NCBI GenBank assembly: GCA_026391835.1
Contig: JAPLDF010000068.1
Span: forward strand, 252,101 to 313,660
Source of the DNA: Bacteroidota bacterium
GTDB lineage: Bacteria; Bacteroidota; Bacteroidia; Bacteroidales; FEN-979
DNA: 61,560 nucleotides
Reading direction: 5' to 3'
Position 1 is the stretch's first letter. Every line of letters begins with the position of its first letter. The notes under the pieces were generated by a model. It made no database searches. It saw nothing but the letters and a program-made list of their open reading frames with translations, and had not been told where the DNA came from. Below are positions 6,862-40,400 of the stretch, in pieces. The translations under genes and the position numbers were made by a program.

Positions 6862-7176
6862 ATGTCTGTCCTGAGATTCATCTTCCGTATCCTGATCAAC
6901 AAATTCTTCCTGACAACGGTGGCATTTGTGGGATGGATGATATTTTTCGACAGCAACAATTTGCTGACGCGGAATCATTTGCAGGAAAAACTGGACCTTA
7001 TTAACCTTGAAAAAAAGTTCTACCTCCAGGAAATCAGGAAAGACTCGATCCTCACCAACCAGTTGATGACCGATACCACACAACTGGAGAAATTTGCCCG
7101 GGAGCGCTACCTGATGAAAAAGGAGAAAGAGGACCTTTTCCTGGTGATTGACACTACTGCGGATCAACATCCATAA
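6862..7176 (+). CDS. FtsB/DivIC-like septum formation initiator protein
   Basis: This 104-residue protein has one transmembrane segment (about residues 10-28, FFLTTVAFVGWMIFF) and a following coiled-coil-like stretch rich in Leu, Glu and Lys. It ends in a conserved region (LEKFARERYLMKKEKEDLFLV) typical of FtsB/DivIC. In that family the protein sits in the inner membrane with its coiled coil outside and helps assemble the cell-division complex. Its 3' end overlaps the 3' end of convergent priA by 23 nt. Which of the paralogous names applies cannot be decided by eye. Confidence 0.82.
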   Translation: MSVLRFIFRILINKFFLTTVAFVGWMIFFDSNNLLTRNHLQEKLDLINLEKKFYLQEIRKDSILTNQLMTDTTQLEKFARERYLMKKEKEDLFLVIDTTADQHP

Positions 7177-19507: not shown

Positions 19508-21118
19508 ATGACAGAAGCAAAGACTCATCACCCTGAGCCAAGTTACCTTGTTGATACAGGCAAGTATAAAGGCCTGATGGCCTGGCTTACCTCAACCGAC
19601 CACAAACGGATCGGGTTGATGTACATGTATGCCATGATGATATTCTTCAGCGTCGGGGGACTCCTTGGCATTTTGATGCGCATCGAATTGTTCTACCCGG
19701 GCCAGCAAATTTACGGGCCCCAGGTATACAACGGTTTGTTCACCATACACGGCATCATCATGATCTTCACCGTTGTCATTCCCGGATTGGCAGCGGTTTT
19801 CGGGAATTTTTCGATGCCTATCATGATTGGCGCCAAAGATGTTGCGTTTCCAAGGTTAAACCTGTTTTCGTTCTACCTGTACGTACTTGGTGCTGCCATT
19901 GCCCTTTCGTCACAATTCATGGGCAACGGGCCGCCCGATACCGGCTGGACGTTCTACGCCCCTTACAGCATTCAAACCCATACCAATGTAGTGGCAGCCG
20001 TGTTTGGTGCTTTTGTGCTCGGCTTCTCCTCCATCCTTACCGGCCTGAACTTTATCGTCACGATGCACCGCATGCGTGCGCCGGGCATGACCTTTTTCAA
20101 AATGCCGCTCTTTCCATGGTCGCTCTACGCGACAGCATGGATCCAGGTTCTCGCCACACCCATCGTAGGGATTACCCTTCTGATGGTCATTGCTGAACGC
20201 TGGCTGCGCATTGGCTTCTTCGATCCTTCCCTTGGTGGTGATCCGGTATTGTACCAGCATCTCTTCTGGATATATTCACATCCTGCCGTTTATATCATGA
20301 TTTTACCCGCCATGGGCGTCATTACCGAAATCATTCCCACTTTTGCCCAAAAGAGGATCTTCGGGTATAAAGCCATCGCAATTTCCAGCCTTGCCATAGC
20401 ACTGGTTGGATATTTCGTCTGGGCGCATCATATGTATACATCCGGGATGAGCACTACCGCACGCTGGGTGTTTTCACTTCTTACGTTTCTGGTGGCTGTT
20501 CCCAGTGCCATCAAGGTTTTCAACTGGGTTGCAACCATGTACAAAGGTTCAATTTCGATGAGGCCACCCTTCCTGTTCGCACTCGGGTTTATATTCCTCT
20601 TCATGATCGGTGGCATGACCGGCCTTTCGCTCGGAGCGCTGGCTACAAATGTTCACGTTCATGATACGGCTTATGTGGTCGCTCACTTCCATTACATTGT
20701 TTTCGGGGGGGTCGGGTTTGCTTTCTTCGCAGCGATTTATTACTGGTACCCAAAGATGTATGGCCGGATGTACAACTTTAAAATGGCCAACTGGTCGTTC
20801 GTATTCCTGTTCACAGGCTTCAACCTGCTTTATTTTCCCCAATTCATCATCGGGATCATGGGCATGCCCCGCAGGTATTTTGATTACCTTCCCCAGTTTA
20901 CGCTTGGGCAGCAACTCTCGTTCTTCGGTGCAATATTGCTGGCCATCGGATTTATCATCATGCTGATCACCCTCTTCAGTAAAAAAGGTGCAAAAGCCCC
21001 CGATAACCCATGGGGAGGCAGAACCTTTGAGTGGCGCATCCCATCGCCTCCACCCCTTGAAAATTTTGAAGTGATGCCGGAAATGGGAGAGAATGAAGAG
21101 CCTTATGACTATAAGTAG
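19508..21118 (+). CDS. coxA: Cytochrome c oxidase subunit I (A2-type heme-copper oxidase)
   Basis: This 536-residue catalytic subunit has about 12 transmembrane helices. Heme and CuB ligands are visible: TIHGIIMIF, the CuB/Tyr helix YSHPAVY (residues 256-262), the HHMYTSG pair, and HDTAYVVAHFHYIVFGG. The glutamate of the common HPEVY form is absent and the preceding residues are Tyr-Ser. This YSHPxVY signature defines the A2 subfamily, where Tyr and Ser take part in proton uptake in place of Glu. ATG 19508 (MTEAKTHHPE) is chosen because the longer frame runs back into the SCO gene. It reduces O2 with electrons from subunit II. Confidence 0.95.
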   Translation: MTEAKTHHPEPSYLVDTGKYKGLMAWLTSTDHKRIGLMYMYAMMIFFSVGGLLGILMRIELFYPGQQIYGPQVYNGLFTIHGIIMIFTVVIPGLAAVFGNFSMPIMIGAKDVAFPRLNLFSFYLYVLGAAIALSSQFMGNGPPDTGWTFYAPYSIQTHTNVVAAVFGAFVLGFSSILTGLNFIVTMHRMRAPGMTFFKMPLFPWSLYATAWIQVLATPIVGITLLMVIAERWLRIGFFDPSLGGDPVLYQHLFWIYSHPAVYIMILPAMGVITEIIPTFAQKRIFGYKAIAISSLAIALVGYFVWAHHMYTSGMSTTARWVFSLLTFLVAVPSAIKVFNWVATMYKGSISMRPPFLFALGFIFLFMIGGMTGLSLGALATNVHVHDTAYVVAHFHYIVFGGVGFAFFAAIYYWYPKMYGRMYNFKMANWSFVFLFTGFNLLYFPQFIIGIMGMPRRYFDYLPQFTLGQQLSFFGAILLAIGFIIMLITLFSKKGAKAPDNPWGGRTFEWRIPSPPPLENFEVMPEMGENEEPYDYK

Positions 21119-21219
21119 CGGACAGGCGGACAGGCGGACGGACGGGCGGACGGGAGGACAGGCGGACGGGCGGACAGGCGGACAGGCGGACAGGCGGACG
21201 GGCGGACGGGCGAACGGAG
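21119..21219. repeat. GC-rich octamer array (GGACAGGC/GGACGGGC)
   Basis: About 12 imperfect copies of an 8-nt unit alternate between GGACAGGC and GGACGGGC. The array begins at the stop codon of subunit I and fills most of the gap to subunit III. A shorter array of the same unit lies at 22380-22450. Confidence 0.92.
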
Positions 21220-21233
21220 GCTAGATGTAAGAT

Positions 21234-21272
21234 TAAATCGTAAATCGTAAATCGTAAATCGTAAATCATAAA
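21234..21272. repeat. AT-rich heptamer array (TAAATCG), about 5 units
   Basis: Near-perfect heptamers TAAATCG lie directly after the octamer array and end 7 nt before the subunit III ATG, so they would form part of its leader. Confidence 0.9.
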
Positions 21273-21279
21273 TTGAAAC

Positions 21280-21873: not shown

Positions 21874-21897
21874 GGGGACGAGGGGACAGGGTAATAT

Positions 21898-22023
21898 GGT
21901 GAACTGGTAAACTGGTGAACTGGTAAACTGGTGAACTGGTAAACTGGTAAACTGGTAAACTGGTAAACAGGTAAACTGGTAAACAGGTAAACTGGTAAAC
22001 AGGTAAACTGGTAAACTGGTAAA
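21898..22023. repeat. Octamer array (GGTAAACT/GGTGAACT), about 16 units
   Basis: An 8-nt unit reading GGTAAACT, GGTGAACT or GGTAAACA is repeated without interruption over 126 nt between subunits III and IV. The core GGTAAAC is shared with the inverted array at 10678-10765. Confidence 0.93.
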
Positions 22024-22040
22024 GCGTTTAGTTGAGGGCA

Positions 22041-22087
22041 AAATCGTAAATCGTAAATCGTAAATCGTAATTCGTAAATCGTAAATA
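22041..22087. repeat. AT-rich heptamer array (AAATCGT), about 6 units
   Basis: The array follows the octamer array closely and ends 7 nt before the subunit IV ATG. One unit is changed to AATTCGT. Confidence 0.9.
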
Positions 22088-22094
22088 TCATCCT

Positions 22095-22379
22095 ATGGAA
22101 ACCGAAACCGTTCATATAACCCCATACCGTGCACATGCATGGGTTCTCATCACATTGCTGGCCCTCACATTTCTGACCATTACCGTGACATGGATCGATC
22201 TTTCGGCGCTTACAGTCCTGGTTGCCATGCTGATCGCTTCGGTAAAAGCTTACATCGTGCTCACCTATTTCATGCACCTGAAATTCGAATCTTCGCTGTT
22301 TCGGGTATTTGTAATCATGGTGCTGGCTATTTATGTACTGGTCATTTTGTTTACACTGTCGGATTATTTGTTCAGGTAG
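22095..22379 (+). CDS. Cytochrome c oxidase subunit IV (prokaryotic type)
   Basis: This 94-residue protein has three transmembrane helices. The conserved pattern is an N-terminal helix, a second helix with VAMLIASVKAYIVLTYFMHLKFE, and a third ending in FTLSDYLFR. The KAY...YFMHLK segment is typical of the small subunit IV of caa3-type and related oxidases. It is placed between subunits III and II. Confidence 0.9.
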   Translation: METETVHITPYRAHAWVLITLLALTFLTITVTWIDLSALTVLVAMLIASVKAYIVLTYFMHLKFESSLFRVFVIMVLAIYVLVILFTLSDYLFR

Positions 22380-22450
22380 ACAGGCGGACGGGCGGACGGG
22401 CGGACGGGCGGACAAGCGGACAAGCGGACGGGCGGACAGGTGGACGGGGA
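22380..22450. repeat. GC-rich octamer array (GGACGGGC)
   Basis: About eight copies of the 8-nt unit GGACGGGC, with GGACAAGC and GGACAGGT variants, begin right at the subunit IV stop codon. It is the same family as the array at 21119. Confidence 0.9.
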
Positions 22451-22474
22451 AACTGATGATTGGCGTAAATATTT

Positions 22475-22503
22475 GTAATTCATAATTCGTAATTCATAAT
22501 TCA
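22475..22503. repeat. AT-rich short array (AATTCAT/AATTCGT)
   Basis: Four 7- to 8-nt units reading TAATTCAT or TAATTCGT end 5 nt before the subunit II ATG. It occupies the same place as the AAATCGT arrays of the two previous gaps. Confidence 0.75.
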
Positions 22504-22508
22504 CTAAT

Positions 22509-23429: not shown

Positions 23430-24296
23430 TTGCAAACTTCCGGTTTCCGTATAATTCTTAGTTTAACCAGGTTCCCTGTTTCGCTGGCAGTAGCCTTTAC
23501 TGCCTTTACAGCCATGGTTATCAGCCCCGTGCATCTCACCCTTGCATCACTTATTCCGGTTGCCGGGATATTCATGCTGGCTTCAGGCGCATCGGCATTC
23601 AACCAATACCAGGAATGGCCATTTGACGAAAAGATGGAACGCACGCGGAAGCGGCCTGTCCCTTCGCGACGGATCAGTACTGCCGAAGCCTTGAGAATCT
23701 CCATGATCTTTATCGTCGGGGGTATGCTGATCCTGCTCTATTATGCGCCACCGGTTTGTTTTATACTCGGGTTTGCCAACCTGATCTGGTACAACGGTGT
23801 CTATACCTACCTGAAACGAAAAACTGCCTTTGCCGTTGTTCCCGGGGCACTTACCGGGGCCATTCCCATCTTTATGGGCTGGACTGCTGGAGGAGGTTCC
23901 CTGCTTGCCCCTGAGGCTCTCTTCCTGGCCTTTTTCCTGTTCCTGTGGCAGATGCCCCATTTCTGGCTGCTGACACTGAAATATGGGCATGAATACCGTA
24001 ATGCGGGTTTCCCCGTGCTGACCGATTTTTTCAATGTATCCCAGATCAAAACAATCATCATGTGCTGGATGATCGCGTCTTCGGGTGCCTCTTTCATGCT
24101 GGTTTACTTTAAAATCCTTCACTACCCGTTTCTGGGGTACGCAGTTGTCGGGCTAAATATCGTGTTGCTGCTGATCATGGCATACCAGTTATTCATGGCG
24201 GCTGTCATGCGGTACCGCCTGATTTTTATTGCGGCTAACCTGTTTATGTTGATTGTAATGCTTGCCTTGATTTCCGACAGGTTTATCAAACCATGA
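23430..24296 (+). CDS. ctaB: Protoheme IX farnesyltransferase (heme O synthase)
   Basis: This 288-residue UbiA-family membrane enzyme adds a farnesyl group to heme B, the first step toward the heme A used by aa3-type oxidases. The first prenyl-diphosphate motif is NQYQEWPFDEKMERTRKRPV, where Glu stands at the place of the usual first Asp. Also seen are YTYLKRKT, GALTGAIPIFMGW and YGHEYRNAGFPVLT. The frame opens just after the subunit II stop; TTG at 23430 is the only conventional start codon before well-conserved sequence. A heme A synthase (ctaA) gene is not in the window. Confidence 0.93.
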   Translation: MQTSGFRIILSLTRFPVSLAVAFTAFTAMVISPVHLTLASLIPVAGIFMLASGASAFNQYQEWPFDEKMERTRKRPVPSRRISTAEALRISMIFIVGGMLILLYYAPPVCFILGFANLIWYNGVYTYLKRKTAFAVVPGALTGAIPIFMGWTAGGGSLLAPEALFLAFFLFLWQMPHFWLLTLKYGHEYRNAGFPVLTDFFNVSQIKTIIMCWMIASSGASFMLVYFKILHYPFLGYAVVGLNIVLLLIMAYQLFMAAVMRYRLIFIAANLFMLIVMLALISDRFIKP

Positions 24297-24344: not shown

Positions 24345-27300
24345 ATGTTGGAATTAGAATCACTTCTGGAAGAATGGAAAAGCAATGTCCATTCAGGTAC
24401 AAAGAGCCGCCAGGCTGCCCTCTCTCTTCTTGCGGAAGCAGAAAAGGCATTCACAATGAACCAGGAGAAACTGGTACCTGAACCGCTGTGGCTTGTTTTT
24501 TTGGACATTACCAAAAACGTTGATTTTCTCCAGGCCCTGGAGACGGATGCCGCCCGGAAAAGATGGACCGAAGTGGTCTTCTGCATCATACAGCATACCA
24601 ACTACGGTCTCCGCGACATGATGGAACAACGTGTTTTGCAAAACCCGAACCATGTGCTCTTTAAAGACATGTCGACAGCGGTGGCAATTGACTGGACCTA
24701 CGAACAGATCTTCCGGCATCTTCGGGAAATTGCCAGCGTGTTTTATAAAATTGTCCAGGATGCTCCCAGGGTAGCATTTTACACTGAAAACTGCCTCGAA
24801 GGGGCGTGCACCGACCTGGCCTGCCTGATGTTCGGCATTTTTGATACGCCGCTCAGCCCGCATTTTAAAACAGATGTACTGCTGCACATATTTAATGAAT
24901 TACATATCAACATTGCGTTGGCCGACACGGAGGAGCGGCTGCTGGTCCTTCAGAAAATACGTGAAAAAACTGAAATAAAGTTCTCCATATTATCATTGCA
25001 GCCGGTTACCCCAAAAACGCGTGAAATCCCATACCTGGTCGAGGAGTGCAAAAAAATATCCCGCTGGGATATGGATGCGATTCTTGGGGACCTCCCCGGC
25101 AAATCCAACAACCAGGTCGCAACAACCATGTTCACCTCGGGAAGTACCGGCCTGCCCAAGGGGGTGTCGTTCTCCATTTACAATATAGTATCAAAACGGT
25201 TTGCCAGGGGCGCAGCCCTGCCGGATGTCGGCGAGGTGGTTTTCCTTTGCTACCTGCCCCTTTTTCATACTTTTGGACGATACCTGGAAATGACCGGCGC
25301 AATTTTCTGGAACGGCACCTATATTTTCGCGGGAAACACCTCGTCGGAGACCTTGCTCTCCCTCTTCCCCAAAACAAACCCTTCCGGTTTTATCAGCATC
25401 CCGCTGCGCTGGCAGGAACTCTTTGAAAAATGCCAGGAGAAGGTCAGCAATGTCGAAAGTCCGGAACTCCGGGAGCAGGCTGTGCGCGATGTGGTCGGTT
25501 CCAGGTTGCACTGGGGCCTGTCGGCAGCCGGTTATCTCGATCCTGAAGTATTCCGCTTTTTCAACCATTATGGCATCCATCTAAACAGCGGTTTTGGTAT
25601 GACGGAGGCTACCGGGGGGATTACCATGACACCACCCGGGAAATACAAGGATTTCACCGTCGGAATCCCTTTACCCGGCGTCAGGACAAGACTTGCAGGT
25701 GGATCCGAACTCCAGCTCAGCGGTCATTATATCGGCCGCTACCTCGAAGATGCAGGACCTGGCGACATCATCCCGTATCCCCTATCGGATGAAAAAGATA
25801 TTTGGCTGTCAACGGGCGACGTCTTCAAGATTTCAAAGGATGGTTATTACCAGATCATTGACAGGGTAAAGGACATTTACAAAAATAACCGTGGCCAGAC
25901 GGTGGCGCCCCAGGTAATTGAAAAGAAGTTTTACAAAGTCCCGGGGATTAAAAATGTCTTCCTCGTTGGCGACAACCGTCCCTACAATGTATTGCTCATC
26001 GTTCCTGATAAAGACGATCCCATTTTCAACTCGCTGCATGGAGACAACATGACCGAGTATTATCACCAGATCGTCATGGCAGCCAACAACGAGGTGGCCC
26101 CGTACGAAAGAGTGATTAATTTCACCCTGCTCGACAGGGATTTCAGCACTGAAAATGGCGAACTTACCCCCAAAGGCTCTTTTAACAGGAAAGCCATTGA
26201 GACAAACTTCAGGGAGGCTGTTGAATTATTATATCAAAGTACTGTTGTCCGGATCAATGCCGGAGATTTTACAATTTCCATCCCCAAATGGTTCTTCCGC
26301 GACCTCGGCATTCTTGAGACTGACATCCTGTTCGACCGCCATCGTTTGATAAACCGGCGCGACGGTTCCAAACTTTTTATCAGGAAGGTTCAGGGAAAGT
26401 GGTTTCAGATCGGCCACCTGAAATACCATATTGAATCAGCCAACATCGACATGGGACTGATAACGCGGCAACCCAAAATCTGGACAGGAAATCCTGCGAT
26501 GATTGCGTTCTGCCCGGTTAAAGAGGGTTGGGATACGTCCATGAAAGACTTCGCGGCCAGCATATACCTTCCCGGATTTAAACAATTCGATGAAAAAAAC
26601 TTCCCGGTAATAAAATCCATCCGCGACCAACACCTGATTGAGGTAAACTACCTGATTTTCAGTGCATATTTCCGGGGACTGGAGGAAGCCTACAAGGCTA
26701 CGGATGAACTTGGCAGGATCCTCATCCAGGCAGAGCCACGTTTAGCCATGGTAATCAGGCACCGGATTGAGGCACTTGCCTATCATCCGGATGAGGAGAT
26801 CCGCTGCCTCGCCTACCGGCTAATCCTGCTAAAGGCACCAAATCCTGAAGACATCCAGAATATGCCTTCGTTCATTGAATCGGGGCGCTCCTTTCTCAAT
26901 GAAAATTCAATTCGTGAGATAGCATCCAGCAACTTCGGAAAACACCGGCTGGACGCCCTTAAACAACGACTTTACTGGTACAGGACGCATCTGAAATGGC
27001 CGGCATCAAAAAAACACCGGCAGGCATTCACGGATGTCCTTGGAATGCTTTACAATTTCGCAGTGCTTCACCTGGAATATTATGTGCCGGTACGTGCTGA
27101 ACTGTCGCGGTGGATTCTGCACAAAGAAGACGGTTATCTCTCTAAAATTGCTGAAAACTATTTCTATTCGCTGGCTGCTGTTTTTGAAAAGGAAGTCGAA
27201 AGCAAATCAAACCGTGATGCACTTTCGGACTGGAAATCAAAGCTTGTTTTTGAACACGGGATTTCGGACCAGGAAAAAAAGCGTGTCACAAAAATCTTCC

Positions 27301-28934
27301 ACTCCACAACCTTCCTCAAGGAAAGCATTATCCTGACGTTTAATGAGCGTGACTTTATGCTGGACGATGTGCCGGAAAAGGGGATATGGATCCTGCGGCT
27401 GCTCGCATTCAAGGAGTTCAAGCATTACCGGCTTTCCATCAATACCAACCAGGGTAAACATTTTGATCTGCACATGGTGTTGAGCGAAAACCCTGATTTC
27501 AGGCCCCGGCCGGAAACATTTTATTGGCTGGCATCGCTGGCAGGGTTCCCTTACGGACCTGCCGTCGCCCCTATTCTTGGCAGCAGCAGGCCAAACCTTG
27601 GCGTACTTACAACACAATATATTGGCGGGCTCACAGCCTGGGATAAGATCCGTGAATTGTCAGAGATTCACCGTTCTTCAGGCTTTATCAGGAGAAATGA
27701 ATGGAAAAAGCTGTTCATCAAGTCGTTTGCGGTTATTTTCAAAGCCTGGCATCATAGTGGTTACCAGATTGTTCCCGGGGCAATTTCACCTGCAAACGTG
27801 GCAATTCCGGAGATGGACTTTCGCGAAAGTGCGGTGATTTTATCCCTTGCGGGCTGGTCGCAATACAAAAATACGTTGTCTCTCATTGAACCCATGCTGC
27901 AGGACTATTACTGCAAAACCGCTTCCATCTACCCGTGGTGCCGCAACCAGCTTGAAATAGCCTGGATTTTTGACGCCTGCATTGAAGCGCTCGGAAAACA
28001 GGAGGCTATTAAGTTCCTGGAAAAACTGAGGCATGACCTGGGCTCAAAAACACTGACCTGCTTCGATTCGACAGGGATGCAGTCGCACCTCGGCGACTAT
28101 CTTAATGTTTCAATAAAACAATATTATCTGCCGGTGGCATTGTTCAGCGCCATCGACCAGTATCTCGACTGGTATAAAATGAACCCGCTTACCACCTCTG
28201 CAGCAAAAGAACAAACCTGCATTGAATTGATGGAACTTTACCGGTTACAGCAGGAGGCAGAACTTGTCCGTTATTTCCTGTACCGTCATACCTATTTTTC
28301 TGATGCCCCCGGGGAGATCAGGGATGCATTTGACAAACTGATTGCCCGCATGATGACACAGCCCGAGGGGCTGGCAATCCAGTTGATTGAACTTTCAGAT
28401 CTCCAGTCAGGAATAAACGAAGCTGAAGATAAAAATGTTTTCAGCAGGATGGTTTTCCCCCGCCTGCAGGGAGAACAGGGCTTTGACTTTATGAAAGTAG
28501 GTGAGAGCCTGCAGGAACATCTGGTGGTACGCTTCGCTTTCGAGGATAACTCGGGCCGGAAGTACATCCTCAGGGAACCGGTTGCCGCGCGTGAGATAGG
28601 ACAATTATATCAGCTCTTTTTTCGTGAAAATTACCCGAAAGAAATTACAGATAAAGACCACCAGTTTGTCCTGACCGATGAAAACGAGAAGATCGTAGGA
28701 GGAATAACGTTCAGGTATATTGAAGACCATAATATCCTGCTCGACGGACTTGTTGTCACCTCTTCGCTGCAGGGGAAAGGCATTGCATCATGTATGATCG
28801 AGAATTTCTTCGCAAGTATGGCGGCCAGGGGCATTGAAGTTATAAAGGCCCATTTCCTTTTTGGGAACTACTATCTTAAACATTTCTTCGAAGTTGACAA
28901 GAAATGGGGTGCCCTGATCAAGAAGTTAAAATAG
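24345..28934 (+). CDS. Giant fusion: AMP-forming ligase, unknown middle region, GNAT acetyltransferase
   Basis: This is a 1529-residue protein without signal peptide or membrane segment, so probably cytosolic. Residues about 90-620 form an adenylate-forming (ANL) ligase like long-chain acyl-CoA synthetases: P-loop TSGSTGLPKG (264-273), GFGMTEATGG (417-425), STGD (489-492) and the hinge-like DRVKDIYKNNRGQTVAP. Residues about 1395-1528 look like a GNAT acetyltransferase, with the acetyl-CoA loop SSLQGKGIASCMIE (QGKGIA at 1476-1481) after VGGITFRY. The roughly 750 residues between match nothing I recognise. Segments TTQYIGGLTAWDKIRE and GYQIVPGAISPANVAI (from 1139) faintly recall the hinge and catalytic loop of kinase-like folds, but the usual Asp is missing. 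ATG 24345 is preferred over TTG 24339. It lies 48 nt after ctaB and 33 nt before icd. Substrate unknown. Confidence 0.85.
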   Translation: MLELESLLEEWKSNVHSGTKSRQAALSLLAEAEKAFTMNQEKLVPEPLWLVFLDITKNVDFLQALETDAARKRWTEVVFCIIQHTNYGLRDMMEQRVLQNPNHVLFKDMSTAVAIDWTYEQIFRHLREIASVFYKIVQDAPRVAFYTENCLEGACTDLACLMFGIFDTPLSPHFKTDVLLHIFNELHINIALADTEERLLVLQKIREKTEIKFSILSLQPVTPKTREIPYLVEECKKISRWDMDAILGDLPGKSNNQVATTMFTSGSTGLPKGVSFSIYNIVSKRFARGAALPDVGEVVFLCYLPLFHTFGRYLEMTGAIFWNGTYIFAGNTSSETLLSLFPKTNPSGFISIPLRWQELFEKCQEKVSNVESPELREQAVRDVVGSRLHWGLSAAGYLDPEVFRFFNHYGIHLNSGFGMTEATGGITMTPPGKYKDFTVGIPLPGVRTRLAGGSELQLSGHYIGRYLEDAGPGDIIPYPLSDEKDIWLSTGDVFKISKDGYYQIIDRVKDIYKNNRGQTVAPQVIEKKFYKVPGIKNVFLVGDNRPYNVLLIVPDKDDPIFNSLHGDNMTEYYHQIVMAANNEVAPYERVINFTLLDRDFSTENGELTPKGSFNRKAIETNFREAVELLYQSTVVRINAGDFTISIPKWFFRDLGILETDILFDRHRLINRRDGSKLFIRKVQGKWFQIGHLKYHIESANIDMGLITRQPKIWTGNPAMIAFCPVKEGWDTSMKDFAASIYLPGFKQFDEKNFPVIKSIRDQHLIEVNYLIFSAYFRGLEEAYKATDELGRILIQAEPRLAMVIRHRIEALAYHPDEEIRCLAYRLILLKAPNPEDIQNMPSFIESGRSFLNENSIREIASSNFGKHRLDALKQRLYWYRTHLKWPASKKHRQAFTDVLGMLYNFAVLHLEYYVPVRAELSRWILHKEDGYLSKIAENYFYSLAAVFEKEVESKSNRDALSDWKSKLVFEHGISDQEKKRVTKIFHSTTFLKESIILTFNERDFMLDDVPEKGIWILRLLAFKEFKHYRLSINTNQGKHFDLHMVLSENPDFRPRPETFYWLASLAGFPYGPAVAPILGSSRPNLGVLTTQYIGGLTAWDKIRELSEIHRSSGFIRRNEWKKLFIKSFAVIFKAWHHSGYQIVPGAISPANVAIPEMDFRESAVILSLAGWSQYKNTLSLIEPMLQDYYCKTASIYPWCRNQLEIAWIFDACIEALGKQEAIKFLEKLRHDLGSKTLTCFDSTGMQSHLGDYLNVSIKQYYLPVALFSAIDQYLDWYKMNPLTTSAAKEQTCIELMELYRLQQEAELVRYFLYRHTYFSDAPGEIRDAFDKLIARMMTQPEGLAIQLIELSDLQSGINEAEDKNVFSRMVFPRLQGEQGFDFMKVGESLQEHLVVRFAFEDNSGRKYILREPVAAREIGQLYQLFFRENYPKEITDKDHQFVLTDENEKIVGGITFRYIEDHNILLDGLVVTSSLQGKGIASCMIENFFASMAARGIEVIKAHFLFGNYYLKHFFEVDKKWGALIKKLK

Positions 28935-28967: not shown

Positions 28968-30233
28968 ATGAATGGAGAAAAAATAACCCTTATAAACGGG
29001 AAACTCACGGTTCCCGACAATCCGGTCATCCCTTTTATTGAAGGTGACGGAATTGGCCCTGATATCTGGCGTGCCAGCGTTCGTGTACTTGATGCAGCAG
29101 TTGAAAAAGCGTATGCCGGCAAGCGGAAAATTGCCTGGAGGGAAGTCCTGGCAGGAGAAAAAGCATTTAAACAAACCGGCGAATGGCTGCCCCAGGAAAC
29201 CCTGGATGTGATTCGTGAGTACCTGGTTGCCATCAAAGGCCCTCTTACCACCCCTGTCGGTGGCGGTATCCGCTCAATCAATGTGGCTTTGCGCCAGATT
29301 CTTGATCTCTACACCTGCCTCCGGCCGGTACGATATTTCACGGGTGTCCCGTCGCCCGTTAAACGCCCTGAAACCACCGACATGGTGATTTTCCGCGAAA
29401 ATACCGAAGATATCTATGCAGGAATAGAATGGATGCAGGGCACTCCCGAAGTCGAAAAAGTGGTCAGGTTCCTGATCGATGAGATGGGGGTGAATAAAAT
29501 TCGTTTTCCCGAAACCTCCTCCATCGGCATTAAACCTGTTTCGAAAGAGGGAACCGAGCGCCTGGTGAGAGCCGCGATACTTTATGCCATCACCCACAAA
29601 AAGCCATCCGTTACCCTGGTACACAAAGGGAACATCATGAAATTCACCGAAGGCCAGTTCAAACAATGGGGATATGAACTTGCCGAAAGGGAATTCGGGG
29701 ATAAGGTATTCACCTGGATGACCTACGACAGGATCAAAGCCAAAGATGGCGACAGCGCTGCCGAAACCGCACAAACGGCTGCAGTTTCATCCGGAAAAAT
29801 TATTATCAAAGATGTAATTGCCGATGCATTCCTGCAGCAAATCCTTACACGTCCGGCAGAATATTCCGTCATAGCAACGCTAAACCTGAATGGCGACTAT
29901 ATCTCCGACGCCCTTGCAGCCATTGTGGGCGGGATCGGCATCGCACCCGGGGCAAACATCAACTATGTAACCGGACATGCCGTATTTGAAGCAACACATG
30001 GCACTGCACCCAAATATGCAGGCAAAGACCAGGTAAACCCCGGGTCGGTCATCCTTTCAGGTGCGATGATGTTTGAATATATGGGATGGATTGAGGCTGC
30101 TGAAATGATCGTAAAAGGCCTTGAAGGCGCCATCAGCAAAAAACGGGTGACCTACGACTTTGAACGGTTGATGGAAGGAGCCACAAAACTTAAATGTTCT
30201 GAATTCGGCACCGAAATTATTGCCAATATGTAA
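28968..30233 (+). CDS. icd: Isocitrate dehydrogenase, NADP-dependent
   Basis: This 421-residue TCA-cycle enzyme oxidises isocitrate to 2-oxoglutarate. Motifs are [11 protein letters not shown] at the N-terminus, [13 protein letters not shown] (Ser103, the place of the regulatory serine Ser113 of E. coli), [28 protein letters not shown], and the cofactor segment [18 protein letters not shown]. That last segment closely follows the NADP-specific E. coli enzyme. Transcription very probably ends at the hairpin 60 nt downstream. Being beside a respiratory cluster fits an aerobic TCA cycle, but co-transcription with the upstream fusion gene is only suggested by the 33-nt spacing. Confidence 0.97.
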
Positions 30234-30291: not shown

Positions 30292-30335
30292 AAAAAAAAA
30301 TTGGGACACATTCATTATGTGTCCCAATTTTTTTT
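30292..30335. terminator. Two-way intrinsic terminator between icd and the PorP/SprF gene
   Basis: A perfect 11-bp stem TTGGGACACAT/ATGTGTCCCAA (30301-30311 with 30317-30327) and a 5-nt loop are flanked by nine A on the left and eight T on the right. It therefore works in either direction. It separates convergent icd from the minus-strand gene, whose TAA stop lies inside the T-run. Confidence 0.93.
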
Positions 30336-31440
30336 AATAGAACGTCGGACATTCCATGGGGCCTCCCCCACTTCCCCGCCGGCCGCTGCCGCCGGGAACA
30401 AAGCCTCCGCCCCCGCCACCACCGAAGATCGACAATTTGTCAAACTCAAGGATCAACGATATCTCATGTGCCCCGCCGGTGCCCTGGAGGGCCCCGGAGA
30501 TCTGGAGGTCGTAACTGTACATGAACTTGAGGTTCATGTCTTCGTAAAAATTGTACTTGTACCCGGCTACCAGCGCAATCGCACTGTTGACCACACCCGT
30601 CATGGTTGACTTGAACCAGCCGCCTACATAAATATTGTATTTCAACAGGTTAAGCCCGACCTGCAAGGAATTCAGGCCGCCCTGGTTCTGGTAGATCCCG
30701 CCGATGTTCACCTTTAAGGGATCGTCACTGCTGCGCGACATCATCGAGGAACCACCGGGACCGGTGGCGATGATCACGTCGAACTGGCCAACCCATTTGC
30801 GCGGGTAAGGTGATGAACCTGTGGAGAGAAAACTTACATCCGGTTTGAAAATATGATCAACTGCAAGGCCGATATTCCCGCTCACATTCCCGCCCGGGTT
30901 GATGAACTGCAAAACACCGCCTACCCCAAAATCTGGTACCACGCGTTTGTTCGCATCCGGCGAAGCCACCATCGAAGGATAGATGTTGCCATACTTCGGA
31001 TCAAGGTTGTTGGAATACACCAGGTCGTCCCAGTTGATCCTGCGCTGCATGATACCCGCCTTGATACCGATCTGGCTGACCATGAAACTTGTGATGGGGA
31101 TCCGTACGCCGATCGTCAGGGCTGCGCCGAAGTTGTTGATCAGGCCCACGCCAGGGGTATCCTGGTTGATCATGATCCCGATGCCACCTGCCCCCGGAAG
31201 ACTCCTGTCGCCAAGGTCTGCTGAAAAAAAGTAGGACTTGAACGAAATCGGCAGGCTCGGCCACTGGTTGCGATAGAGAAACCTCGCCCTTACACCCGTG
31301 TTGATGCCCGTGAAGGCCGGGTTGTAGTACATCGGTGTGCTGAAATACTGCGAATAGTTCATGTCCTGGCTGTGCGCATGCGGAACAATCCCAAGCAAAC
31401 TCAGAATCACAAGAATCGGATATAGGTATCGGTTTTTCAT
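30334..31440 (-). CDS. PorP/SprF-family type IX secretion outer-membrane protein
   Basis: This 368-residue exported beta-barrel-like protein has a signal peptide ending at HAHSQ. The family hallmark follows at once: DMNYSQYFSTPMYYNPAFTG, then RFLYRNQWPSLP. This is the N-terminus of PorP/SprF proteins. In characterised Flavobacterium systems such proteins are encoded next to, and needed for surface attachment of, very large type B T9SS cargo. That arrangement is seen here, with the 2988-residue PKD protein 18 nt upstream. The C-terminal tail is glycine-rich (FGGGGGGGFVPGG) and unusual for a barrel end. The stop codon overlaps the two-way terminator. Confidence 0.93.
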   Translation of the reverse strand: MKNRYLYPILVILSLLGIVPHAHSQDMNYSQYFSTPMYYNPAFTGINTGVRARFLYRNQWPSLPISFKSYFFSADLGDRSLPGAGGIGIMINQDTPGVGLINNFGAALTIGVRIPITSFMVSQIGIKAGIMQRRINWDDLVYSNNLDPKYGNIYPSMVASPDANKRVVPDFGVGGVLQFINPGGNVSGNIGLAVDHIFKPDVSFLSTGSSPYPRKWVGQFDVIIATGPGGSSMMSRSSDDPLKVNIGGIYQNQGGLNSLQVGLNLLKYNIYVGGWFKSTMTGVVNSAIALVAGYKYNFYEDMNLKFMYSYDLQISGALQGTGGAHEISLILEFDKLSIFGGGGGGGFVPGGSGRRGSGGGPMECPTFY

Positions 31441-31458: not shown

Positions 31459-34400
31459 TTATCGGATTAATGTTACACTGCCCATGGTCTTGCTGGAGGT
31501 TCCAACACCAATGTCTGATCCCTCCCACTGCGAATCATCCACAAACAAAGCACTGATCTTCCACATATAGTTACCCTGGGGCATGAGTACTCCTTCAAAG
31601 GTACCATCCCAGCCTTCGGCGGGCATGCCCTTGTCGTCGAGTTTGGTTGATTCCCACATCAAATGCCCCCAGATATCAAACACGGTGACATGATACTGTT
31701 TCAGGTTAACCCCGATAGGCTTGAATAACCTTACACCCAGGTTTGTACTTGATGGCGAGAAAGCATTTGGAACATATAATCCTTTGAACAGCAATTCATA
31801 TGTGTAGAATGTCGTGTCGGTACAATTGAACTGGTTCATGGTGATGAGCTGGATGGTATAGGTGTCGTCGTCGGTAAAGAGCGCTACAGGACTCTGTTCA
31901 TTCGAATATTTACCGTTCCCGAAATTCCAGAAGTAACTCAGGCTGTCGCCGGAGGTGAGGTTGTTCATCTTCACCTGCCCCTGCTTGCCGTTGTAATTGT
32001 TTTCAACGGTGAATGAACTTATCGGGGTCACGTTGACTTTAACTGTCGAGTCAACCGTATCGATACAGCCATAATGGTCTTTGACGATCATCCTGATATC
32101 GTATAACCCTGTTTTCGGGTAGCGGTAACTTGGGTTCATAAGCACGGAAGTGTCCCTGAAGGAAGTCAGATCCCCGAACGACCAGCGCCATTTCCACAGC
32201 GTGGTATCCGATTTAACCGACTTGTCGGTAAAGAACGTAGGATCGCCTTCGCAGGCAGCTGTGTTGTCGTAATGCGCTGCAGGCAGTCCATAGATGCGGG
32301 TCGCCTTGGTTAAGGAGTCTTTACAGCCGTATTTGTTCATCACCACAAGTTTTACGTTGTAGATACCGGCGGTATCGTAAGTGAAGACCGGGTTTTTAAG
32401 GTTTGATGTATCCTTGACAGCTGCACCGAAATCCCAATGCCATCTTGCTATGCCCAGTCCGTATGTTTTGGAAGTATCCCTGAACAACGAGATCTGGTTC
32501 AAACATGTCGGAGGATTGGAGAAGAAGGTATTTGGTGTCGGACGAACGATGACCTTGCTCACCATATCGTCGGTGACGGGAATTCCGTTGACCGTGGTCT
32601 GAATTTCCAGGTTCACGTTATAGCTTCCGCTGTCGGCGTAGGTATGCATGATTGGAGAATTATGCACCGTGTAGATTGTATCGGTTCCGTCTCCCCAGGT
32701 CCAGTGCCATTGCTGGATAAGTGGCGGCGGGGCGATAGGTATCGAATTGTCGGTGAAAGAGACCTTATACCTTGCACACAACGTATCATTGAAGGTGAAT
32801 CCGGCCATGATGCACGGGAACCGCTGTACACTGCGCGTGATGCTGTCCTTACAGCCAAAACTGCTTTCCATAATCAGCTTGACCGTATAAATACCGGGAG
32901 CACCATACACATGATAAGGGTTCTGAAGGATAGAGGTATTGGTGGGACTGCCAACATCGCCAAAATCCCAGCTCCAGCTTTGGATGGTCCCGCTGCCGGT
33001 GATCAGGGTGGAATCGCTGAAATTAATGGTATCGCTGCACAGTTTGCCAACATAACCGAACAATGGTTTTGGCGCCTGGTAAACCGTTACATCATGGTAT
33101 ACGCTGTCGACACAATTATCGGTATTGTAAGCCTTCATTTTCACAACGAATGTTCCCGGGTGTGAAAACACATGGGTGGGCTTTAACAACAATGAAGTGT
33201 TGTTCGGCATGGAACCCGGATCTCCGAAATTCCAGGATACATTGTACAGCTGATCGCCGGGAGTTACATTGATTGTATCAAAAGCTGTTGCAAAACCTTC
33301 ACATTCATTGGTGCTTGTAAACGAGAAGGTGAATCCCGGTTTTACAAAAACATTCATGATGGTGTCATCCTTGCATCCATATGTGTCGGTCACGCTGAGC
33401 GTTACGGGATAGGTCATATTGGTTGCAGGGAAAACATAGGATGGATTCGGGATATTCGAATTGGCCCCGGGCAAAAAAGTCCATAAACGGTCGGCGATCG
33501 ACGAGGCTGTTGCTGTTGAGATATCCTGGAAATCAACCTTGCCTGCCGGGCAATAGTAAGCAGAGGAGGTAAAGTCGGCAAACGGTATTTTCCGTGCAAT
33601 AACGACCATTGTAACCGAATCGCTGCAACCCAGGAAGGTGGTTACGACGAGTTTCACATTGTAGTTGCCTGCTGTAGGAAACGCCCACTTCGGGTTCTTA
33701 TCGGTTGAGGTACAAGTCGGACAGCCGAAATTCCACAGCCACGATCGTATCTGGCTGCCTGGTGCAAGCGACAGGTCGGTGAATTGCGTTGAATCACCCA
33801 CACAGGCCGGCGTATATTGGAACATGGCTGTTGGCTTGGGATTCACGATAACCTGCATGGTTGTATCATGCACACACTGGTTTGAAGTGGTAACCTGGAG
33901 GTTCACAAAATAGGTTCCCTGGTTGTCAAACTTGTGCGTGGGATTCTTCAATGTGGAAGTATTGTATATTCCGCTGCCGGGATCACCAAAGTCCCATTGC
34001 CAGGCCAGGATTGATCCTGTGCCAATGGTAGAGAGGTCGGTAAACTGCGTCGGGCTCGACATACAGGCGGTATCAGCCGAAAACAATGCAAACGGGGCGT
34101 CGTTGATATTGAGGACCTTGAAAGTGGTATCCTTGCACCCGTTGATATTGGTCACGATCAGGCGTACCGTGTCATTGGCGTTGCCGACGGAGAATTCATG
34201 AACAGGGTTGGGCAGGGCAGAGATGTTTTGCGCCCCGGATCCCGGATCACCAAAGTTCCATGACCAGCCGCTCACTGCGGCACCGCCGCCACCCTGCGAG
34301 ATATCTGTAAACTGCATCTGCATCTTCGCGCATCGCACCGCGGGATAGGTAAAGTCGGCCATTGGTTTTTCCTTGACCACCACAGGGTTGATCTTTTCCG

Positions 34401-37400
34401 ATTTGCAACTGTCGGATGTGGTGATTTCCAGCCTCACATTGTAGGTTCCGCCGTTGGCAAAGGTGTGCCAGATGGTCGGCGTGCTCCTGGTCTGCACCGG
34501 GGTGAGGTCATCAAAATTCCACCTGTATGTTACGATGTACCCGTGGAAAGCCGAGGAACTCATGGCATTGAACTGAACGGAGTCTCCCGCGCAGGTTGCC
34601 CCGGTGGTGGTAAAGGCCGCAAAGGGCTTGCCATAGACTTCAACAGCCCTGGTGGTATCTTTAAAACATCCAAGGTCGGTCGTAACGGTAAGCGTAACCT
34701 GGAAGGTCCCGGAGGTGGCATACGTATGGGTAACGGGTGGTGTAGGGTTGGTAAGGATGGTCATGTCGCCAAAATCCCACACCGACGTAGTAATCACACC
34801 GGCATTGGGGACAGAGGTATTCACAAAGGTCATTTCGCCACCCTGGCACTGTGGGTCAAACGTAAAATCTGCACGTGGCTTGGCATTGATGGTAACAGTT
34901 TTCGTATCGGCACTGGCAGAAATACACCCGCTGGCATTTGTCACAAACAAAGTTACTATTTTTGGCCCGGTGGTCACGTAGGTATGCACAGGGTTTGCAA
35001 CGTTGGCGGTTCCGCCGTCACCGAAGTTCCAGGCATAGGATTGTATCGGGCTTCCGCCGTTGGGCGAAGAGGTACCTGAACTGAACTGGATCGTCTGGTT
35101 AACACAGTTGGTCGGATCTACTGTAATATGAGCAACAGGTGATGGAACGCTGTTTACGTCATGGGTCACCCAGCTGAAACATCCGGCTGCAGAGGTAACG
35201 GTCAGCTTGACCGTGTGCACCGGCAGATTGTCGGCAAACGTATGGGTGACAACGGTTGGTACGGTTGCGGGAGTAAAGATATCCTGCTGGGTATCACCAT
35301 ACTCCCATTTCCACTCTACGATGGTTCCAGGGAACCCTGCAGGCATGAACGAATCGTTATAGTACGAAACATCCGAACCGATACAGTTGACCTGTGAAAA
35401 ATGGAACAGGGAAATGGGATTTGGCTCCACAAAGACACGCTGGGTGACAGAAGAGGTGCATCCGCTGTTGTTGATGATGGTAAGTGTCACATCATAATAC
35501 CCAAAGTTGCTGTAAGGATGATTCGCTATCTGTCCGATTCCGGTCTGGGTATCGCCAAAATCCCAGGAATAAGAAGCTATGTCACTTACCCCCTGTGTGT
35601 TGGAAGCGCTGGCATCGAACACGGTGGGTTGTCCCTGGCACACCTGGCTAACGGTAAACAGCGCGGTAGGCGCGGAACCGATTGTGATGTTTTTGGTGGT
35701 CGTGGTGGTGCAGTTATCCACATTGCTCACGATAAGGGTCACCGTATAGGGACCGGCAGTGGTAAAGGTGTGGCCGGGGTTCTGGGCGAAAGAAAAATTA
35801 CTTGTTCCCGAGGCCAGGTCACCAAAATCCCACGACCAGCTTGTTATCTGGCTTCCCCCGTTTTGAGCCGAATGATCGGTAAATTGTACCGACATATCCT
35901 GGCAAAGTGTGGTTGAATATAAGAAATCAGCAAAAGGTGAATATTGGATCTGGATGGGGACTGTCCGTGTTTCGGTACAGCCATCGGAGGTGATCACCTT
36001 GAGGGTAACATCGTAAGAACCGCCGGTTGCATAGGTATGCGTTGTTGTTGGACTCGGTGTTGGCGGATCATCAGGGCCATCACCAAAATTCCAGATGCGT
36101 GTCGCAATATACCCGTGCAGGGTTTGCGAATAATCAGTGAAAGTCACCACATTGCCGGCACAAACAGGCGCTGTGCTGCTGAAAGTAACAGTCGGTTTGG
36201 CGAAAACTTCCACCTGCTGGGTGATTGAATGCGTGCAACCTGCAGGAGTTGTAACGGTGAGGGTAACGGCATGTGTACCCGAAGTAAAGAAGAAATGGGT
36301 CGGGTTTGGACCAAAATCAGTAAGCCCGTCATCATATTGCCAGAACCAGGTCTGGATACCCCCTGCCGGGGTTGACAGGTCGGCAAAGACCGTCCCCGAA
36401 CTCAGGCAGGAAGAAGAAGCTGTAAACGCGGCAACCGGTTTGGGCTGGATGATGATCTGGATCACCTTGGGCACCGAAACGCAACCGTTTACATCAGTTA
36501 CGGTCAGGGTAACATCAAATGGCCCGAACGTGGTGAAATCGTGGGTAGGATTCAGCTGGGTTGACGTATTGTTTGCAATTGAGCCGGGGTCCCCGAAATT
36601 CCAGAGACGGCTGGAGATGGCAATTCCTCCGACCGTGGTGGAGTTGTCAAAGAAACTGATGGTCTGCTGTTCGCACTCATAGCCGGTATGGCTGAAATTG
36701 GCCGTGGGTTTTGCAAAATGGGTGATAATCTGCTGAAGCGCAGAAATACAGCCATCAGAGGTGGTAATCGTCAGGGTCACCTGGTGTGACGTCTGGTTGT
36801 CATTGTAAAGATGAACGACCAGTGGGCCACTGCCCGTGGTGAGGTCTCCGAAGTCCCACGACCAGCTTGTGATCGATGCGGTGGAACCAAGGGTGGTGGG
36901 AATATATGCGTCGCTGTAAAAGGTTATCGACGAATTCTCGCAGGATGCAGTTGTAAAGTGGAACAGTGCTACTGCTTTGGGATTGACCATCACCTGCTGG
37001 GTCAACGAATGTGAACAACCATTGGAATTGGTTACCGTAAGGGTTACCGGGTGAAGCCCTGCCACGGGGAAAATATAGCTCGGCGAGGGTGAAGGCGATG
37101 TGATACCTCCCCCAAAATCCCACAGATAAGTCATCGTTCCCGGGGCATTGACCACGGAAAGATCGGTAAATACCGTCGGATCGCCTTCGCAAACCGTAGT
37201 GAAAGAGAAAAGGGCATCAGGCAGTTTGTTGACAGTTACATCCTTTTCAAAGATCGTACTTACGCAGTTGTTCGATGTTTTGACAACCAGGGTGACCCGG
37301 TATGTTCCGTCAAGCGCATAAGTGTGTGTCGGGTTTTCGGTAAAAGCTGTATTGTTGGGAGGGTTGTCTCCGAAATTCCAGGACCATTCGATGATCGGGC

Positions 37401-40400
37401 CTCCGCCATTGGGATCCGACAGGCTCTGGAACTGTACCGGCTGTCCGGCACACTGGTTTGTCCCCAGCAACGTGGTAAAACTGGCAACAGGTGCAGGCAG
37501 CAGGTTGACATTGATGACGATCTCATTCACACAGCCATAGGTGTTGGTGACTGTCAGGTGAACCGGCCATGAATAGGTGCCCAGTACAACCGGGAACCTG
37601 TGCTGTACATTCGGGTTGCCGCCGAAAAGGATGGTCTCGGGATCTGGTGTGGTACCATCGCCCCAAGTCCATACCCAGGATGTGATATGATCGCCTGCCG
37701 GGCCTCCGGGTACCGACTGGTCGGTAAAAGAAACCAGGTCGCCTTCGCAGGTCGGGCTGGAATAGGTAAATCCGGCCGTGGGAGACGGAACCACATTGAT
37801 ATCTTTGGACAGGGAGTTGGTACATCCGTGGATGTCGGTAACCGTAAGGGTGGTCGTATGGATCCCTGTCGCTGATGCCAGGTAGGCATGTGTGGTGCTG
37901 ATGGGATCATGAGAAACCGGCAGTCCGTCACCGAAATCCCAGGTCCAGTTGGCGATCGTAAGCGGATCCATGCCAGTTGACTGGAACGTAACGATCTGTC
38001 CGGCACAGGCTACTGTGGGGATCGTGTAACCGATTGGGATCGGGGGGTTGATCGTCACAGGAAGGGTTTTAACAGGGCTTTCGCAATCCTGCAGGTTCTC
38101 TTTTACCCTGAGGGTTACATTGTACACAGCTTTGCCGCCATTTGCCAGCATGGTAAAGGTATGTGACGGGTTCATCACCGTGGAAGTATTGTTGGGTGCC
38201 GAAAGCGGGTCGTCAAAATCCCAGGCCCACTGGTAGATCGTTCCCGGAGGGGTTGAGTTTGAGTAGGAGCCATCGGTAAAATAAACGGTCTCACCGCTGC
38301 AGGCCTCGCCCTGGTGCATGTGCAGGGGATCGCTGAACCAGGTAAAGGTAGCCGTCGGAGCTTCGAAAATGTTCACCAATACAGAGAAAGTTACTTCCAG
38401 CGGGGTACCCAGGTTCAACACCCTGGTAACCGTGTAAGGGCCCGGAGCTGCATAGGTATGGGTCGGGTTGCCGGGTACCGCAGGCGGAACAAGATGCAGG
38501 ATCGCCGATCCATCGCCGAAATCCCAGTCTTCGGTAGAGATCAGGCCGCCCGGGGGGCAGGGAATGAACTGAACAATGGCGTCCTGGCACTGAATGGGTG
38601 GGTTTGCGGTGAAGCAGGCGGCGGGGGGGGAACCGAGCACCAGGTCATGTGTAATGATGCTGGAACAGCCGGTCAGCATATCGATGGCGGTGCACTTTGC
38701 CGTGTAGGCGCCGGGCCCGGGATACGTATGGGTGATGGGTGATCCGAAACCGTTGGTTCCGTCGCCGAATTCCCACAGCACATTGTTGTTGACATTTTGC
38801 GCTGGATCAATCTGTGCGGTAAAAATCTGTTGATACATCGTAACTCCCTGTATCATGCTGAATTCGATGAATGGGTGGGGCGAAATTACGAGAGCGTTGG
38901 TGGCGGTAAGCGCTTTCGTATTGGCACAACCAGCCTGGTTTGTTACTGTAAGCGATACAAGGTAACTGCCTGGTCCTGTAAAAAGATGCGTCGGATTGGC
39001 ATCAATGGAGGTAGGATTTGGCGAAGTAGGATCATTGAAATCCCATAAATACGATGCAATGGGAGTACCTGTTAAGGGTGAACTTAAACTTGAGTTGAAT
39101 TGAACCGCATCACCGGTACAGGTGACTATAGGATAAGTAAAATCAGCCTTGGGGGATGGCTGGGCCAGAATCGGAACGGCAATGGTGGTATTATCGCAGC
39201 CGTTGGAATTCAGAACTTTAAGTGTTACATTGTGCTGGACCAGGTCGGTAAACACGTGCGTTACTGTTGCCGGCGGCGGGATTCCCGGAGGTATAGTGCT
39301 GTAGTGTGTTGAGGGAGTGCCGTCGTCCCAGTTCCACCACCAGTCGGTAATGGTACCGATACTTGGCAGCGAGTTATCCGTAAAAGGAGCAGGCTCGTTT
39401 ACACAGGTTTGTGCAAAGGAAAATGCAGCCACCGGGATGGTATTGGGAACATCGATGGTAATGGATTTGCTGACCGTACAGTTAATCGTATTGACCAGGG
39501 TTACCGTAACAGTTCGTGTTGCAGGTGATGTGTAGGTATGTGTGGTGGTCAGCTGGGGAATTGTCCCCGGAATAAGCGGGTAATGCTGGGTGGTTCCATC
39601 GCCAAAATCCCAGTCCACGTAAAGAAATGTCTCGCTTGTGGGCATCAGGGTCGGGAGGCTTCCCACAGCGCTGAATGAAAATGGCTGGTTCAGGCAATTT
39701 GGAGTGGCTGGTATGTCGAGGACCACTACCGGTTTGTATTTATCAGGATCAACATAAACGAAATCGGTGATCTCATCTTCCCAGGTGCGTGTGGCGATTA
39801 ACTTTGTGACTTTATGGTTAACTTCATAAGTAACTCCGGGTGTGGCCGGGAAATTAATTTTAACGGAATTGGGACCGACAGGAGTGATATTCGTTGTGAG
39901 CCAGGGACCCTGCGGGCTGTAAACACGATATTTCCATTCATAGTTGATCGAAGGGTCTTCGGGAGGATATTTTCCATCGCCTGTTGCAGTAAAGTTCACT
40001 TCATTATAATAACAACCATGGGCGGCATCAAATTCATAATAAAAATACGCGGCAAGCATCGGTTTCACAAGCACGGCTAGCGGGGGAGTTACAGCAACCG
40101 CAGCGCAGCCGTTTCCTGTAATTCCTTCACTGAGTTCAATCTGATAATCACCGGGAGTGAACCAAACCTGGTCGAGTTCGCCTGTGAAATTGGTTGTAAC
40201 CACGGGTATTCCCACGGGAAGCCCTCCCTGAAGTTCAGTAACCTTCCATGTGTAGTAATGACCTGTTACCAAAGGGGAGAAATATTTGACCGGGGTTGCA
40301 CTTGCACCTACCACATCAGGACCCGTAATAATGGGATGGGTATCCGGACATTGGGCAATTGCCCCTATCCCTGATGAAAGGAAGAGTACCGCGAGAAAAA

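Follow-up and report, generated by a model that had tools for sequence, protein, structure and literature searches.

Bacterial GNAT protein acetyltransferases are described in five layouts, some of which sense acetyl-CoA, cAMP, NADP or amino acids, in the relevant passages of PMC8556138 and PMC11254643. The closest of the described systems, the Pat/PatZ enzymes of types I and II, consist of a large acyl-CoA-synthetase-related domain fused to a GNAT domain, and the synthetase domain of Pat is given as NDP-forming and inactive in the corresponding passage of PMC8556138. The locus analysed here lies in a window of 61,560 nucleotides from a Bacteroidota bacterium (assembly GCA_026391835.1, contig JAPLDF010000068.1), in which nucleotides 24345-28934 of the + strand form a single open frame of 1,529 residues, starting with the ATG at 24345 (an in-frame TTG lies 6 bp upstream of this ATG) and ending with the stop codon that closes at 28934. 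The initial annotation had read this frame as an uninterrupted fusion of an adenylate-forming ligase to a GNAT acetyltransferase, distinct from the Pat type. The frame does hold the ligase motifs (T264-G273, G418-G425 and S489-D492) together with that of the GNAT domain (Q1476-A1481), and the distinction from Pat stands: in contrast to the inactive NDP-forming domain of Pat, the models that the ligase matches are AMP-forming, none of them NDP-forming, and its putative catalytic residues are conserved. The fusion further differs from Pat in adding a beta domain, a solenoid and a putative pseudokinase, to a total of about 1,530 aa, and it fits none of the five published types as these are set apart by their descriptions in the passages cited. 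Its parts, in order along the gene, are listed below.

24345..28934, + strand: whole gene, 1,529 aa; a single open frame, with orthologues similar in length
24345..24623, + strand: N-terminal extension, residues 1-93; without Pfam match, and variable, gapped and poorly conserved in alignment A1
24624..25706, + strand: AMP-forming ligase core, residues 94-454, PF00501 (Pfam E 3.3e-45); K272 and E421 kept
25890..26240, + strand: ligase C-terminal subdomain, residues 516-632, PF23562 (AMP-binding_C_3; Pfam E 6.3e-11)
26172-26174, + strand: K610, candidate catalytic lysine, present in 118/118 aligned rows
26244..26567, + strand: small beta-rich domain, residues ~634-741 (structure model residues 10-117); without Pfam match
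26628..27341, + strand: helical solenoid, residues ~762-999 (structure model residues 138-375)
27357..28106, + strand: kinase-fold domain read as a pseudokinase, residues ~1005-1254, from the models and Foldseek, with lost catalytic residues
27768-27806, + strand: counterpart of the catalytic loop in the kinase-fold domain, by sequence register
28134..28454, + strand: second helical stretch, residues ~1264-1370 (structure model residues 640-746)
28479..28925, + strand: GNAT acetyltransferase domain, residues ~1379-1527, PF00583; GCN5 is its best solved relative by profile
28770-28787, + strand: acyl-CoA loop QGKGIA in the GNAT domain, from the window protein sequence

Domains of the fusion protein

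In the Pfam scan of the window protein, AMP-binding covers residues 94-454, AMP-binding_C_3 residues 516-632 and Acetyltransf_1 residues 1432-1515 (E 8.7e-8), while three weaker GNAT models begin as early as residue 1427. Pfam found no ligase family in the C-terminal 900 residues, and residues ~633-1426 matched zero Pfam families at E up to 1; placement of the middle of this protein in a known Pfam family was therefore rejected. Stray weak matches occur in a few members, such as TetR_C_10 in 6/46. As to membrane anchoring, the window protein has no transmembrane-like stretch, its peak 19-residue hydropathy being 1.43.

The ligase half possesses the core fold of the AMP-forming adenylating enzyme superfamily, with its P-loop TSGSTGxPKG and the conserved residues of motifs A5, A7 and A8. 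In an alignment of 118 rows (97 from the main and 21 from a distant subfamily, a few of them duplicates), no row aligned there departs from K272, E421, D492 or R507, apart from a gap at K272 in a single row, and K610 in the A10 region of the C-terminal subdomain is invariant (118/118). The latter is a candidate catalytic lysine by its position, a role which we assign to it by presumed analogy with luciferase. Since these five residues are kept, the ligase looks active. The best 25 of 87 NCBIfam models matched are adenylating-enzyme models, all far below their cut-offs, and the best solved relatives are carboxylic-acid-reductase-type and other acyl ligases, namely 6oz1 (oxidoreductase), 5msp (thioester reductase domain-containing protein) and 5mso (carboxylic acid reductase). 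The protein has PF00501 and AMP-binding_C_3 in common with AMP-forming acyl-CoA synthetases (long-chain fatty-acid--CoA ligases and the A domain of carboxylic acid reductases), but differs from these in that Pfam finds neither a carrier nor a reductase domain in the fusion. Carrier-based transfer of the NRPS kind was rejected, there being zero carrier domains in the Pfam scans of the window protein and of 46 members, and an earlier suggestion that the middle region relays an acyl group or amino acid is not supported by any result.

At the other end of the chain, the window protein has the GNAT fold together with the Q/RxxGxG/A acyl-CoA loop that define the superfamily; PF00583 scores above its cut-off in this protein and is found in 45/46 members at E up to 1. 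The loop, QGKGIA in the window, varies in part of the main subfamily, its first residue (1476) being Q or R in 61/97 main and 21/21 distant rows. Tetrahymena GCN5 is the best solved relative by profile (7.5e-8). The window's domain resembles GCN5-type GNATs in this top match and in its loop, and differs from them in being bacterial and fused to a ligase; the similarity to GCN5 does not fix its substrate.

Some 750 residues between the two ends had been called unassignable, with a guess that they might include a degenerate kinase fold. The first of these statements holds as far as Pfam families in the window protein go, but the structure prediction that the initial annotation had proposed yielded a confident AlphaFold2 model (residues 625-1529, from 46 sequences; pLDDT 87.9, pTM 0.80), which resolves a predicted beta domain, helical solenoid and kinase-like region, followed by a helical stretch and the GNAT domain. 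A Foldseek search with this long model returned VPS34 PI3-kinases first (E 2.1e-5, ~600 columns, rmsd ~16 A) and, lower in the list, GCN5-type GNATs and PRPK/Bud32, E. coli PatZ at rank 14 (168 aligned columns) and, at rank 22, the M. smegmatis cAMP-binding acyltransferase. A separate model of region 1000-1364 (pLDDT 89.9, pTM 0.88) gave 130 PDB matches at E up to 0.001, and the best 50 of these 130 are all kinase-like. They include CDC7, PRPK/Bud32, EphA3 and the pseudokinases CASK and JAK2 JH2, as well as macrolide and corramycin phosphotransferases. The predicted fold is thus that of protein kinases, at 9-14% identity among the matches listed; for Bud32 the TM score is 0.58 by target length and 0.41 by query length. 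The solenoid-then-kinase order resembles that of VPS34 with its helical domain, but the superposition is poor at ~16 A and we make no VPS34 family claim for that reason. PI3-kinases of class III are defined by their lipid-kinase catalytic loop and DFG. Membership in that class was rejected, as the DFG-Asp is absent, catalytic residues are missing and the superposition is poor; VPS34 is also absent from the best 50 of the 130 matches of the isolated region.

With the VAIK, HRD and DFG positions assigned by sequence register, not by residue-level superposition, the DFG-Asp position is occupied by Ser or Thr in 118/118 rows, the presumed third strand (columns 1041-1046) has a lysine in one row of 118, and the Asp of the HRD-like position is present in 0/97 main and 9/21 distant rows (9/118 in total). 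The catalytic-loop Asn, N1151, is kept in 97/97 main and 18/21 distant rows (115/118), and R1029 in 114/118. In this register the domain lacks the combination of VAIK lysine, HRD Asp and DFG Asp that marks an active protein kinase. Given the replacement of the DFG-Asp in every row and the want of a conserved strand-3 lysine, we read the domain as a pseudokinase, seemingly dead. The guess of a degenerate kinase is thereby backed by the structure model, by the best 50 of the 130 PDB matches and by the DFG position.

Integrity and distribution of the fusion

A full-length orthologue in one stop-free frame was found in 29 of the 61 genomes searched (the window's own and relatives). All 61 tally as matches: beyond the 29, two (G017 and G036) have the orthologue in pieces, and the remaining 30 match through the ligase part only, in other acyl-CoA-ligase-like frames. 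Among the 18 other genomes of the genus, two (G003 and G010) show no orthologue in this search. Queried with the middle region, 10/149 genomes of the order and 22/395 of the phylum match (the window's own included in both counts), one of the latter marginally (G248, a 149-aa frame), as do 11/149 genomes in the phylum of G621, reached via an Acidobacteria-labelled MAG; with a kinase-region profile, 15/149 genomes match in the class of G122. The frames around these matches measure 1,515 to 1,792 aa, except for G248, G799 (a 543-aa frame) and G513 (two frames, of 1,175 and 1,071 aa).

Alignment A1, run against named genomes, led to 387 confirmed relatives, the best 80 of which were kept. A stop-to-stop frame of >1,400 aa is present in 75 of these 80; of the five shorter ones, three (L077, L134 and L143) reach contig ends and two (L101 and L107) are split. 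Kept relatives are labelled Bacteroidales/Bacteroidetes, Chlorobiota, Ignavibacteria, Kapabacteria, Zixibacteriota, Acidobacteria/Thermoanaerobaculia, Calditrichaeota, Gemmatimonadetes and Deltaproteobacteria, although MAG labels can be wrong, one copy 67% identical being labelled Alphaproteobacteria. The distribution is patchy, and the distant subfamily shares 25-28% identity with the window protein.

Against two orthologues 82-84% identical, dN is 0.04-0.12 and dS 1.4 or more (one dS was not computable), with the GNAT domain as the most constrained part in this comparison of two close orthologues; these estimates show strong purifying selection on the fusion. The full-length one-frame orthologues and the purifying selection argue against a chance or frameshift joining of separate genes, and a frameshift or assembly join was ruled out by the one-frame layout in 29/61 genomes and in 75 of the best 80 named relatives. 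The search for homologues sharing the three-part layout, which the initial annotation had recommended, thus found many. The ~1,530-residue fusion is real, conserved and widely shared, its domains keeping one order in distantly related bacteria, with labels that span several phyla. No description of it was recognised in the open-access PMC literature, judging by titles and abstract openings, and as far as that literature goes the ligase-pseudokinase-GNAT fusion is apparently undescribed.

Gene neighbourhoods and the TCA cycle

In the window itself, the fusion gene is flanked closely on both sides.

23430..24296, + strand: ctaB (heme O synthase-like; TIGR01473 E 2.6e-53, below the curated cut-off), 48 bp upstream of the fusion gene
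28968..30233, + strand: NADP isocitrate dehydrogenase, 33 bp downstream of the fusion gene

The ctaB-like gene in turn sits after cytochrome oxidase subunit genes. The citrate synthase of this genome is on another contig, C16, where it adjoins an aconitase-like frame; this pair (L187, G000:C16:1-20000) keeps what appear by eye to be the usual neighbours of the family, though not the fusion gene, which is placed with isocitrate dehydrogenase behind the oxidase cluster instead. The same ctaB may, judged by length only, be represented in two closely related loci (L069 and L077) by a frame of 288 aa immediately ahead of the fusion. Between the cytochrome oxidase genes, at window positions 21118-21212, 21234-21273, 21897-22086 and 22379-22508, there are short arrays of tandem units of 7 and 8 bp (GCGGACAG, TGGTAAAC, GACGGGCG, TAAATCG and others), which yield repetitive frames without likely meaning. 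On the far side of isocitrate dehydrogenase, 31459-40425 (- strand) encodes a 2,988-aa repetitive, secreted-looking protein with PKD-like repeats and a gliding-type C-terminus (by eye). Behind it, at 30334-31440, comes a PorP/SprF-like frame (by eye); 25/100 loci show large repeat proteins that cluster together.

Comparing the gene neighbours of homologues, as the initial annotation had advised, proved informative. Citrate synthase lies within 3 kb of the fusion gene in 16 of 45 carrier genomes, which are not independent cases; the carriers were chosen by us in two sets (15/27 and 1/18 with citrate synthase within 3 kb) and cover all 20 good carriers of the phylum search (395 genomes), with only five genomes of the window's own family. 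Located genome-wide in these carriers, in most of which it has one copy, citrate synthase is not within 3 kb in the other 29, among them G683 and G742 (Acidobacteria-group), which have it at ~22 kb and ~32 kb. Random placement of one gene in 4 Mb would be expected to bring it within 3 kb of the fusion in well under 1% of genomes. A further 49 genomes with listed citrate synthase positions (42 have one) were left out of the count, these positions not being tied to loci. The gene is present at 117 of the 119 loci examined, with no fewer than four duplicates among them. Of these 117, 39 have the citrate synthase cluster, 34 that of isocitrate dehydrogenase and 32 that of aconitase, and 64 lack all three, many of the contigs being short.

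When named loci are added, citrate synthase stands beside the fusion in three branches of the tree (by FastTree topology alone) and in three orientations, and two citrate synthase subfamilies are represented among the six copies scanned. At most loci of the window's branch, with gene identities taken from the members scanned, the fusion and aconitase point away from each other; citrate synthase usually lies behind aconitase on the opposite strand (PRK14032 type in L072), and isocitrate dehydrogenase follows the fusion. In a Bacteroidales group drawn from the named loci, citrate synthase is either upstream on the same strand (L099 and L104) or convergent downstream (L108 and L114), and is of the PRK09569 type in L099 and L108. 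In the distant subfamily, Bacteroidota have it upstream on the same strand, and L171 (Acidobacteria-group) has it convergent with a 1-bp gap. Aconitase was seen in the window's branch only, and isocitrate dehydrogenase only in that branch, L049 and L129. Loci labelled Zixibacteria/Zixibacteriota, Calditrichaeota, Gemmatimonadetes and Deltaproteobacteria have none of the three TCA clusters in their available flanks. No universal neighbour was found, the 20 neighbours scanned outside the TCA branches being mixed, and there is no association with sirtuin deacylases, as these are no commoner with the fusion (28/30 carriers) than without it (31/34 non-carriers, 30 over the curated cut-off). Overall, the neighbourhoods in several lineages point to the TCA cycle, a link that the initial annotation had not raised.

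Other arrangements also recur. At ten distant-subfamily loci (L052, L053, L056, L057, L059 and L181-L185), citrate synthase and the fusion are preceded by an FAD oxidoreductase-like gene and a pair of squalene/phytoene-synthase-like genes (HpnC/D/E-like by eye). In L064, a stand-alone GNAT gene (7171-7647, + strand) lies 52 bp upstream of the fusion on the same strand, and in L109 the matching position is taken by a similarly sized frame.

Readings of the function

The reading that we prefer, at a probability of roughly 0.4, is that of a Pat-like protein acyltransferase that has its own AMP-forming ligase, is gated by a pseudokinase and is linked to the TCA cycle. Its domain order follows the logic of Pat, with an acyl-CoA-related module and a GNAT. 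The ligase would activate a carboxylic acid to acyl-AMP or acyl-CoA, and the chain would thereby make or sense its own acyl donor; the solenoid and pseudokinase may constitute a switch that binds a ligand or partner, and the GNAT domain would acylate a lysine in a partner protein. Going by gene neighbourhood, the likeliest partners would be citrate synthase, aconitase and isocitrate dehydrogenase, the first TCA-cycle enzymes. Acetylation alters the activity of E. coli citrate synthase, as stated in the pertinent passage of PMC11254643. In its fullest form, the proposal would add a sixth type to the bacterial protein acyltransferases, with an active AMP-forming ligase that supplies the acyl donor, a pseudokinase-solenoid sensor and direct acylation of citrate synthase or isocitrate dehydrogenase; it is unlikely to hold in every part.

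Lipid-type genes also recur beside the fusion in some branches, which counts against a Pat-like protein acyltransferase. They would suit an N-acyl small-molecule or aminolipid synthase, a rather doubtful possibility, whose ligase half would make acyl-CoA, whose GNAT half would pass the acyl group to a free amine (an amino acid, a polyamine or a lipid head group) and whose middle would be a scaffold or regulator. Small amines commonly serve as GNAT substrates, a point for such a synthase and against protein acylation, and the matches of the ligase half to fatty-acid--CoA ligases and carboxylic acid reductases agree with it, as do the squalene/phytoene-synthase-like genes (by eye) upstream of citrate synthase at the ten distant-subfamily loci, an SDR and other unassigned genes in the window's branch, and an LpxC-FabA gene 132 bp downstream of the fusion in L051. 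Yet none of the lipid-type neighbours extends beyond a single branch, while citrate synthase recurs in three, and a synthase of this kind has no obvious need for a conserved pseudokinase. A self-limiting acyl-CoA synthetase is another idea, which would leave the citrate synthase and isocitrate dehydrogenase neighbourhood unexplained. Here the GNAT domain would acetylate K610, or the catalytic lysine of other cellular acyl-CoA ligases, and turn acyl-CoA synthesis off at high acetyl-CoA, much as Pat acts on Acs in trans. Pat is an established regulator of AMP-forming acyl-CoA synthetases, K610 is present in all 118 rows, and ligase, middle and GNAT stay together in the relatives compared; the LTPKGS/T context of K610, however, differs from what we take to be the context of known Pat targets, and we consider this explanation improbable.

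Pseudokinases with catalysis are known, and the kinase-fold domain might itself be an active, unusual enzyme, for example one that transfers AMP or phosphate, fed or regulated by the ligase and GNAT domains. The retention of N1151 (115/118) and R1029 (114/118) and the HRD-like Asp in 9/21 distant rows speak for it, but with Ser or Thr at the DFG-Asp position throughout, a lysine in only one row at columns 1041-1046 and the HRD-like Asp in 0/97 main rows, it is very unlikely.

If the Pat-like reading is true in its fullest form, bacteria of several phyla would govern entry into the TCA cycle by a dedicated switch, and the pseudokinase would gain a new place in bacterial metabolism. The layout lets one ask directly whether TCA entry is controlled by acylation from a dedicated bacterial enzyme, and the fusion may regulate central metabolism in a new way.
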